DNA of 42,003 nucleotides from Burkholderiaceae bacterium (lineage in GTDB: Bacteria > Pseudomonadota > Gammaproteobacteria > Burkholderiales > Burkholderiaceae_D), in the NCBI GenBank assembly GCA_018262475.1, contig JAGSYW010000003.1, forward strand, positions 1-42,003, read 5' to 3'. Shown in pieces: positions 2,794 to 40,251 of this stretch. The position numbers and the translations under genes were made by a program. Each line of letters begins with the position of its first letter. Position 1 is the first letter of the stretch. The notes beneath the pieces are model-generated. The model worked only from the letters and a program-made list of their open reading frames with translations, was not told where the DNA came from and did no database searches.

Positions 2794-2913
2794 GCAGCGC
2801 TGCCATGACGCAACCGCTGGCACCGTTCATTAGGATGAACGCCTGCCCCCCACATGGTTGAATGGCATGTGCCTGCTGCCAACGCCTTGCGACTTGGTCG
2901 TAAAGCTTGAAAT

Positions 2914-2943
2914 AACTGACCGGAATGGCGGTTTCGGTCAGTT
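2914..2943. repeat. Hairpin AACTGACCGGAA...TTTCGGTCAGTT preceding element A
   Basis: 12-bp stem with one G.T wobble; counterpart of the hairpin at 28967-28994. Confidence 0.75.
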
Positions 2944-2950
2944 AGGCAAA

Positions 2951-3030
2951 AATACATACTCCCCGCAGTATTTTAAAATCGCCAGAAAAATGGTGACCCA
3001 ACCCTTCATTTTTACAACATACCCCAATCC
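2951..3030 (+). repeat. Copy A of dispersed intergenic element
   Basis: ACATACTCCCCGCAGTATTTTAAAATCGCCAGAAAAATGGTGACCCAACCCTTCATTTTTACAACATACCCCAATC. Confidence 0.65.
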
Positions 3031-21092: not shown

Positions 21093-22967
21093 TTATTTTT
21101 TCAGTTGTCCCAGATCACGTACGGCACCGCGGTCGGCAGACGCTGCCAGCAATCCGTATGCCTGCAATGCCTGCGACACGACGCGCTGACGGCTCACAGG
21201 CTTCCATGCTGCATCCCCCTTGGCTTCCATCACCTTGCGCCGGTTTGCCAGTTCGACATCGCCAACCCGCAAATTGATGGTACGACCAGGAATATCGATG
21301 TCAATCATGTCGCCCTCTTCGACCAAGCCGATCGCACCACCCGAAGCCGCTTCCGGCGACGCATGGCCGATAACCAGGCCCGACGAACCACCTGAAAAAC
21401 GCCCGTCGGTAAACAAAGCACAAGTCTTGCCCAGTCCTTTGGACTTCAGGTATGAAGTCGGATACAGCATCTCCTGCATGCCAGGCCCGCCTTTTGGCCC
21501 TTCGTAGCGGATGATGACGACGTCGCCATCAACAATCTTGTCACCCAAAATCGCATCAACCGCATCTTCCTGGCTCTCGAATACGCGCGCGCGGCCACTG
21601 AATTTCAGGATGCTTTCGTCAACACCAGCCGTTTTCACGATACAGCCGTTTTGCGCAATGTTGCCATAAAGCACCGCCAGCCCGCCGTCCTGTGAAAACG
21701 CATGCGCCTTGTCGCGAATGCAACCCGCCACGCGATCGGTATCGAGTTGCTCATAGCGCCTGTTCTGCGAAAACGCGACCATGCTTGGCACACCACCAGG
21801 CGCAGCCTTGTAGAACTGCTGCACAGCCGGATCCTGCGCGGTAATAATGTCGTTGGCGGCAATCGCTTCGCCCAGCGTTTTGCTGTGTACGGTCGGAACG
21901 CTGGTATCGAGCAGACCCGCACGCACCAGTTCGCCCAGAATTGCATAAATGCCACCTGCACGATGAACGTCTTCGATATGGTAATCCTGCGTCATCGGCG
22001 CAACCTTGCACAGACACGGCACCTTGCGCGAAATACGGTCGATGTCAGCCATGGTGAAATCCACCCCTGCTTCCTGCGCAATCGCCAGCAGGTGCAGCAC
22101 GGTATTGGTCGAACCGCCCATCGATACATCGAGCGCCATCGCGTTTTGAAATACAGCCTTGGTCACGACGCTGCGCGGCAGCACTGAAGCATCATCATTT
22201 TCATAATAGCGCTTGGCCATTTCGACAATCATGCGACCAGCCCGCAGGAACAGTTCCTTGCGATCGGCATGCGTTGCCAGCAGCGTGCCGTTGCCCGGCA
22301 AGCCCAAGCCAAGCGCTTCCGTCAGGCAGTTCATCGAGTTCGCGGTAAACATGCCTGCGCACGAACCGCAGGTTGGGCAGGCAGAGCGCTCGAACGACAT
22401 CACCTCGTCATCTGTCACACCAGGATCGCCTGCCTGAATCATCGCATCGATCAGGTCAATTTTGATGACCTTCTGCGAACCTTGCTCGCGACCACGCAGC
22501 GCTTCTTTCGTTTTGCCCGCTTCCATTGGGCCGCCTGAAACAAAAATCGTGGGGATATTCAGGCGCATTGACGCCATCATCATGCCCGGGGTGATCTTGT
22601 CGCAGTTGGTGATACAAATTATTGCATCCGCGCAATGCGCGTTGACCATGTATTCGACCGAATCTGCAATCAGCTCGCGCGACGGCAGCGAATACAACAT
22701 GCCCCCGTGCCCCATAGCGATACCATCGCAGATCGCGATGGTGTTGAATTCCCTCGCCACGCCGCCGGCCGCCTCGATTTCGCGCGCAACCATTTGCCCC
22801 AGATCCTTCAGGTGAACATGCCCTGGAACAAATTGCGTGAACGAGTTGACCACGGCGATGATCGGCTTATTGAAATCGCCATCCTTCGAACCGCAAGCGC
22901 GCCACAGTGAGCGCGCGCCGGCCATGTTGCGGCCGTGGGTCGAAGTATGTGAACGGTATTGCGGCAT
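21093..22967 (-). CDS. ilvD: Dihydroxy-acid dehydratase
   Basis: 624 aa; [79 protein letters not shown]. Confidence 0.98.
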
Positions 22968-23180: not shown

Positions 23181-23265
23181 GAAAATCCGGGGGTATATTT
23201 CGAAAATCACCGGATCGGCCTAATATTCTACGACTGTTTAAAAATACCCCATGGAGTATTTTCAT
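23181..23265 (-). repeat. Copy B of dispersed intergenic element
   Basis: Reverse complement GAAAATACTCCATGGGGTATTTTTAAA...AGAATATTAGGCC...GATTTTCGAAATATACCCCCGGATTTTC aligns with the other copies. Confidence 0.65.
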
Positions 23266-28894: not shown

Positions 28895-28966
28895 CCCGCG
28901 TTTTCCGCGGGAATACCGGATTCAGGGAAGCGTCTGGCTTGGATCAGGCCACGCAAGCCAAAAATA

Positions 28967-28994
28967 ACTGACCGAAAATGACTTTTCGGTCAGT
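28967..28994. repeat. Perfect 12-bp stem hairpin ACTGACCGAAAA-TGAC-TTTTCGGTCAGT preceding element C
   Basis: Direct inspection; near-identical hairpin at 2914-2943 preceding element A. Confidence 0.85.
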
Positions 28995-29003
28995 AAGCTC
29001 CAC

Positions 29004-29083
29004 ACATATACTCCACTCAGTATCCGGAAACCACCAGAAAATATGTGGCCCATCCTGATATTTTTGGGATATACCCCCGCCAT
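29004..29083 (+). repeat. Copy C of dispersed intergenic element
   Basis: ACATATACTCCACTCAGTATCCGGAAACCACCAGAAAATATGTGGCCCATCCTGATATTTTTGGGATATACCCCCGCC. Confidence 0.7.
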
Positions 29084-33580: not shown

Positions 33581-33660
33581 AAATATACTCCCACCGTGTA
33601 TTTTTGAGCCCCGCCGCAATATGTGGCAGAACGGCAGTATTTTCCGCAATACTCCCGTTT
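33581..33660 (+). repeat. Copy D of dispersed intergenic element
   Basis: AAATATACTCCCACCGTGTATTTTTGAGCCCCGCCGCAATATGTGGCAGAACGGCAGTATTTTCCGCAATACTCCCG. Confidence 0.65.
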
Positions 33661-33671
33661 TTCTGAAAAAG

Positions 33672-33699
33672 ACGGCGCAGGCGACTGCGCCGTTTATAA
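33672..33699 (+). terminator. Intrinsic-terminator-like hairpin after the helicase gene, overlapping a TATAAT box
   Basis: ACGGCGCAG-GCGA-CTGCGCCGT followed by TTATAATTT. Confidence 0.6.
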
Positions 33700-33729
33700 T
33701 TTATGCGTCCCATTCCACTGGCTCGAAAG

Positions 33730-40189: not shown

Positions 40190-40251
40190 CAGGTATATCC
40201 ATTTTCGCCATATTTTTCTTGGCCAATCAAAAATACACCACCCAGTATAAG
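40190..40251 (-). repeat. Copy E (shorter) of dispersed intergenic element
   Basis: Reverse complement CTTATACTGGGTGGTGTATTTTTGATTGGCCAAGAAAAATATGGCGAAAATGGATATACCTG aligns to copies A-D with a short gap. Confidence 0.5.

Follow-up and report, generated by a model that had tools for sequence, protein, structure and literature searches.

Five intergenic segments (A to E) in the window, by which we mean the whole 42,003-nucleotide stretch of DNA analyzed, are members of a single dispersed family. An initial observation of these segments was right and undersized. The hosts are a soil bacterium and its sister species, in which roughly a hundred copies per million bases lie at the downstream ends of genes. 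The family has defined boundaries and a fixed internal spacing, and its copies stay in place, are conserved where they stand, and favor gene 3' ends without regard to strand. We assign a probability of about one half to the reading in which each copy is a cis element maintained by the host, passed on vertically, and acting as double-stranded DNA, putatively as a protein-binding site, in a BIME-like manner. The copies are probably working parts of the chromosome, not junk or recently jumping DNA, because they have kept their places and key letters while the surrounding DNA changed almost beyond recognition. Among the readings first offered for these segments, protein binding is favored here, in preference to a REP-, ERIC-, or MITE-like mobile repeat or a structured RNA.

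Members and anatomy of the family

A short-form profile was trained on 65 short-form copies from a sister genome (G002, the MAG 'Burkholderiaceae bacterium CTSoil_111') and then run on the window, where it recovered all of A to E at E values from 1e-14 to 3.5e-6 (Table 1). The reversed window produced no match below E=0.4, which upholds the relatedness of the five segments. Further copies are found far beyond chance. The pattern ATATACYCC-N30..60-ATATACCCC has 39 exact matches in the window's own genome (G000, 2.18 Mb in 160 contigs), and the reversed pattern has 0. Long and short profiles combined identify 173 copies in the 1.52 Mb of G002 (83 long and 90 others), or one copy per 8.6 kb. With the long-form profile, nothing fell below E=0.01 in reversed G002 or in the 1.2 Mb of a third congeneric species (G001). 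The family was initially described as an unnamed one, and this description stands: a search of the window against Rfam yielded nothing at gathering score, five related loci had no Rfam match over an element at E<=0.1, and no paper describing the element was found in the literature searched.

Table 1. Copies of the element in the window, parts of copy C, and orthologous positions on contig C6 of the sister genome G002
Feature	Position in window	Strand	E value	Remarks	Ortholog (G002 C6)
Copy A, long form	2910..3025	+	1.2e-24	Long profile	22271-22386(+)
Copy A, short-profile match	2956-3025	+	5.2e-12		
Copy B, short form	23190..23262	-	1e-14		42875-42948(-)
Copy C, long form	28962..29077	+	9.9e-27	Clearest in window; left palindromic module plus core	47972-48086(+)
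Copy C, short-profile match	29006-29077	+	8.7e-13		
Left palindromic module of C, ~AATAACTGACCGAAAATGACTTTTCGGTCAGT	28964..28995	+		Long form only; 83/173 copies in G002	
Core dyad of C, ATATACTCC-N4-AGTAT (ATACT-N6-AGTAT)	29006..29023	+		Conserved alignment columns	
Distal half-site of C, ATATACCCC	29069..29077	+		Its ATACC starts exactly 63 bp after ATACT	
Copy D, short form	33581..33655	+	7.2e-11		52740-52813(+)
Copy E, degenerate short form	40204..40249	-	3.5e-6		59375-59416(-)

The layout ATATACTCC-N-AGTAT(TT)...ATATACCCC is present in the sequence as originally reported. The extents of the copies hold in part: B, D, and E are short, and A and C begin about 42 bp further left than had been proposed. 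This reflects the existence of two forms, a short form of about 75 bp (B, D, and E) and a long form of about 117 bp (A and C). The latter adds a left module, AAATAACTGACC-hairpin-GGTCAGTAAGGCC, that was clipped in the preliminary description. When 30 copies are aligned with their flanks, this module reads in full AAATAACTGACC-n-AAA-N6-TTT-n-GGTCAGTAAGGCC-AAAAA, preceding ATATACTCC. A second class in G002 matches only positions ~38-117 of the long-form profile, and the search for solo left modules found none, returning one insignificant match. Copy E is weak, covering only model positions 5-50 of 75, with its ATATACC about 14 bp too close.

Information content rises sharply at (GGC)CAAAATAAC and drops after ATATACCCC, which is followed by a tail of about 8 bp that is weakly T-rich. 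The near-invariant parts are the dyad ATACT-N6-AGTAT and the distal ATATACC. ATATACTCC and AGTAT belonged to the search pattern used for one alignment (A2), and the dyad is also conserved in the profile-selected set. Counted from ATACT, ATACC comes exactly 63 bp later in 142 of 163 G002 copies (79/82 long and 63/81 short). A protein-coding reading was considered and rejected: in some copies the reading frame stays open through the 72-bp core, but an in-frame TAG and variants of 70, 71, and 73 bp occur. Shortly 3' of copy D, at positions 33667-33700 of the window, is a strong GC-rich hairpin, AAAAAGACGGCGCAGGCGACTGCGCCGTTTATAAT, that resembles an ordinary intrinsic terminator.

Conservation in place and position relative to genes

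Contig C6 of G002 is collinear with the 42-kb window at positions 19294-61169 and carries exactly five elements there, which match A to E in position, form, and orientation. The ortholog of copy D was missed by the profile in the first flank mapping and was recovered with the short-form profile. Wherever both flanks of a copy in the window's own genome could be mapped, G002 has an element at the corresponding site. Across 106.7 kb of collinear DNA, where orthology is based on draft assemblies, 31 pairs were matched and the orientation is identical in all 31, leaving two copies found only in the window's genome and one only in G002. One of these two is counted as shared because an element is listed at the expected place in G002 (C35:26311-26426), giving 32 shared and 1+1 unmatched copies. 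Mixed orientation had been taken as a sign of mobility, but the copies are static, both in the window (5/5) and over these 107 kb.

Conservation of individual letters follows a similar course. Across 24 pairs of orthologous long copies, identity is 95% in conserved columns and 49% in variable ones, as against 35% agreement at variable columns among non-orthologous copies; the 30 loci from the window's genome that lie outside the window were selected for intact motifs, and the window comparison is free of that selection. Flanks of orthologs are about 68-72% identical in gapped alignment, compared with about 60-63% for unrelated flanks. Element length differs by only 0-1 bp in 23 of the 24 ortholog pairs, and unaligned flank lengths differ by at least 2 bp in 20 of 21 cases. 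Because conserved columns and element length are kept while variable columns and flanks change, purifying selection acting on every copy at its own site is the simplest explanation.

The copies are also distributed unevenly with respect to genes. Among G002 intergenic regions of at least 80 bp, 60% of convergent, 24% of tandem, and 8% of divergent regions carry a copy (Fisher P 2e-8 and 3e-7), as judged from gene calls by a simple codon-usage script that is adequate for orientation statistics and unfit for exact starts. In tandem regions, 45 copies are sense and 51 antisense, amounting to no strand bias. Spacing between copies is more even than under random placement matched for gene-orientation context (CV 0.76 versus a median of 0.89, P 0.01), with 22 gaps under 3 kb observed in G002 versus 40 expected. 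With regard to replication orientation, the copies have a weak link to local GC skew (Fisher P 0.047).

Location, spacing, and strand neutrality form an indirect basis for a BIME-like role in DNA topology, which we consider the likeliest of several candidate jobs that include insulation and nucleoid organization. The element could serve as a rigid platform composed of the dyad ATACT-N6-AGTAT, a middle block TTTAAA..GCC..AAAATATGTGGCC, and the distal half-site ATATACC, with the half-site placed exactly six helical turns from the dyad and on the same face (63 = 6 x 10.5 bp). In the long form, the palindrome CTGACC..GGTCAG would be an optional upstream addition. We infer that a DNA-binding protein or complex occupies this platform by reading the dyad and the half-site six turns away. 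Once bound, it would act where transcription units end, chiefly between converging genes, as has been proposed for the BIMEs of E. coli. BIME/REP elements of enterobacteria are bound by IHF and Pol I. Several observations weigh against such a host role. The 10.5-bp A/T phasing that a wrapped gyrase-type site might show is absent inside the element, the variable columns are more diverged between orthologs than fourfold coding sites (49% versus 73% identical), the long form often resembles a terminator (see below), and the element is missing from G001, a congeneric species.

A further reading, which we hold tentatively and at less than even odds, is that the family constitutes a previously undescribed chromosome-wide boundary element, with some 113 sites per Mb marking transcription-unit ends in a Burkholderiales lineage. 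If so, a protein or complex would recognize the dyad and the half-site across six turns, and purifying selection would preserve the exact 63-bp spacing as well as the map of sites from species to species. This would set the family apart from REP families, for which RAYT-driven replication is the usual view. The host function of dispersed bacterial intergenic repeats is an old question, and most families have been explained as slow replicators. The one-to-one retention of sites, orientation, letters, and 63-bp spacing between two species with strongly diverged intergenic DNA, in which no cognate transposase is seen, provides unusually direct comparative evidence for a working part. Moreover, a defined sequence is now available for fishing out the binding protein in a culturable relative (Undibacterium).

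RNA-level, conversion-driven, and mobile alternatives

The preliminary description raised the possibility of a structured RNA with mutually exclusive folds. The sequence does contain an inner stem, GCCA/TGGC, and the ATACT/AGTAT pairing, but covariation beyond shuffles is absent: 4 double-change pairs were counted versus 3.9 in shuffles, and the covariation score is 0.087 versus 0.084, a null result that applies within the window's genus. No convincing helix was found by RNAalifold (invariant ATACT/AGTAT pairs only), mutual information, pair counts, or a short-form scan. Because the pairings do not covary, alternative folds are unsupported as RNA, and a structured RNA in general fits poorly with the lack of sense or antisense bias in tandem genes.

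A more specific proposal is that the element is a transcription terminator or another 3'-end RNA element, whose stem-loops halt or protect the transcripts of both neighboring genes. Copies do sit at gene 3' ends, and long copies carry a terminator-like hairpin and T run more often than shuffles, on the reverse strand (63% versus 21%) and on the forward strand (28% versus 6%). Due to this frequency, the left module may act at the RNA level. As an account of the family, a terminator is nevertheless quite unlikely in our judgment, given the lack of both covariation and strand bias and the little terminator likeness of short copies. Nor do gene ends beside elements lack terminators of their own (convergent gene ends, 12% versus 16 +/- 3% at matched lengths), and a fixed 63-bp spacing is unexpected for terminators. 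Concerted evolution of an old functionless repeat, in which conversion among copies would maintain the consensus and no selection on individual sites would be needed, is less probable still, even though orthologous copies (median identity 78%) are hardly more alike than non-orthologous copies across both genomes (74%) and identity within G002 (79%) slightly exceeds that between genomes (75%). Conversion would homogenize the variable columns, yet these are near-random (35%) beside near-invariant columns, and by itself it leaves the 63-bp constraint and the avoidance of divergent regions unexplained. Some gene conversion may occur among copies of a host-maintained element, because variable columns are more diverged than fourfold sites and orthologs are barely more alike than paralogs. 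For the variable columns of alignment A2 (the loops and the 6-8 bp before GTTTT), candidate reasons for the high divergence are gene conversion, hot spots, and codon bias at the reference sites.

G000 and G002 each encode one Y1/REP-type tyrosine transposase; that of the window's genome matches Pfam Y1_Tnp and scores 77.1 bits against NCBIfam REP_Tyr_transpos, just below the cut-off of 80. In G000 the gene lies between hsp20 and a glutamate-synthase-like gene (contig C136, locus L098 1471-2193). It has the same neighbors in G001 and G002 and is thus vertically inherited. In both element-bearing genomes, GGGGTCGGAGT-type inverted repeats (also written as GGGGTCRGAGTC-type or GGGGTCAGAGTC repeats) and not the element flank this gene on both sides, and AGGGTCAGAGTC does so for its ortholog in element-free G001. 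Homologs were found in 12 of 13 genomes searched, G001 included. The nearest element is 0.8 kb away, beyond hsp20, which is unremarkable at such density. Because the gene is bracketed by GGGGTCRGAGTC-type repeats and is common to element-free genomes, it was ruled out as a cognate REP-associated transposase. G001 possesses an abundant intergenic repeat of its own, (A)ATTCGGGGTCAGAGTC/ACTCTGACCCCG (loci L100 and L108-L161), a close form of which brackets its REP-type transposase. This repeat occupies some intergenic regions where G000 and G002 carry the element, and G001 intergenic DNA is too diverged for alignment at candidate empty sites. The form abundant in the G001 genome, GGGGTCAG, fits GGGGWSAS, a motif of TIR-flanked transposases (PMC3733652).

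Marks of mobility were sought in the element itself. Neither a GTAG nor a CGTC tag occurs in its consensus, a unit of 75 or 117 bp, when both strands are read. Terminal inverted repeats are lacking too, since the consensus ends match at just 10 of 25 positions in inverted comparison. No k-mer of 3-8 bp is shared between the flanks of 79 long copies above the level of shuffled pairs, as target-site duplication would require. The element has no match in plasmids, phages, or viral contigs, and near-identical recent copies were not seen. A mobile repeat is thus a poor description of its present state, with no recent copies, target duplications, terminal inverted repeats, or cognate transposase.

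Comparison with known families leads to a similar view. The BIME/REP elements of enterobacteria, reported to be DNA gyrase targets (PMC3733652), likewise number in the hundreds outside genes, sit at gene 3' ends and in convergent regions, are rare in divergent regions, and have a plausible DNA-level role. Unlike them, our element is not built of 20-40 bp palindromes with a GTAG tag. It is an asymmetric unit of 75 or 117 bp with a fixed 63-bp spacing and no cognate REP-associated transposase. REPINs and RAYT-mobilized GTAG REPs (PMC3116915, PMC8049555) resemble it as a vertically inherited population of related elements in a genome that encodes a REP-type tyrosine transposase, but here the transposase is bracketed by other repeats, the element is not two inverted REPs, and there is no sign of copying. 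CGTC-tagged REPs (PMC3733652) are also abundant short intergenic repeats without a dedicated transposase, whereas our element has no CGTC tag and is not a single simple palindrome. MITEs (ERIC, NEMIS/Correia, and RUP) share its length of about 100 bp, intergenic and non-coding character, and family-wide consensus, but not its lack of terminal inverted repeats and target-site duplications. As far as tested, the element resembles the REP, REPIN, and MITE families in working but fails their defining features, and it would seem to belong with interspersed extragenic repeats that have a host role.

The strongest rival, though an unlikely one, is a REPIN-like replicator: a non-autonomous element of IS200/IS605 or REP descent, kept alike by slow transposition together with selection or conversion. 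AGTAT would act as a guide that pairs with ATACT and ATACC cleavage sites on either side of a hairpin. AGTAT is indeed complementary to both flanking ATAC motifs, and the order is that of cleavage site, guide, hairpin, and cleavage site. Furthermore, the central stem in Undibacterium takes different paired forms (GTCCAG/CTGGAC, GTCCA/TGGAC, CCCC/GGGG, and CCTT/AAGG), the distribution across Undibacterium species is patchy, and a REP-type tyrosine transposase is present in the genome. Against this stand the repeats that bracket the transposase and its occurrence in element-free genomes, the missing tags and target duplications, the lack of near-identical recent copies, and a comparison over 107 kb in which no gain or loss is clear. 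Descent from such a replicator would be consistent with an element that is domesticated today. Another candidate is a signal for DNA uptake or recombination, built up by molecular drive in the manner of the neisserial DUS. Such a signal would share the even spacing, intergenic 3' placement, and patchy genus-level distribution of the element. We regard this as highly improbable, as the element is far longer than known uptake sequences, occurs just once per 8.6 kb, and has a multi-block structure with fixed spacing.

Occurrence in related genera

Within the window's genus, the dyad pattern ATATACTCC-N2..6-AGTAT has 68 and 77 matches in the two genomes that bear the element and 0 in G001. In members of genus g33 (Undibacterium, to judge from named records) the count reaches 112, many species of that genus are without the pattern, and most other genera in the family have about 0-1 matches. 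Undibacterium carries a diverged, patchy version of the element. Several of its copies keep the end motifs at 62-63 bp, and their middle is quite different, with varied perfect stems. At Undibacterium loci L246 and L247, two copies are followed by an inverted motif, GGGGGGAGTAT, in place of the direct ATATACCCC, and many dyad matches in this genus are near-perfect palindromes (e.g., ATATACTCCCCCGGAGTAT). The inverted motif and palindromic dyads suggest a second architecture. In several genomes of genus g19, a palindrome, ATATACTCCAATTGGAGTAT, usually occurs as one copy per genome and recurs in many species; it is probably an unrelated operator.
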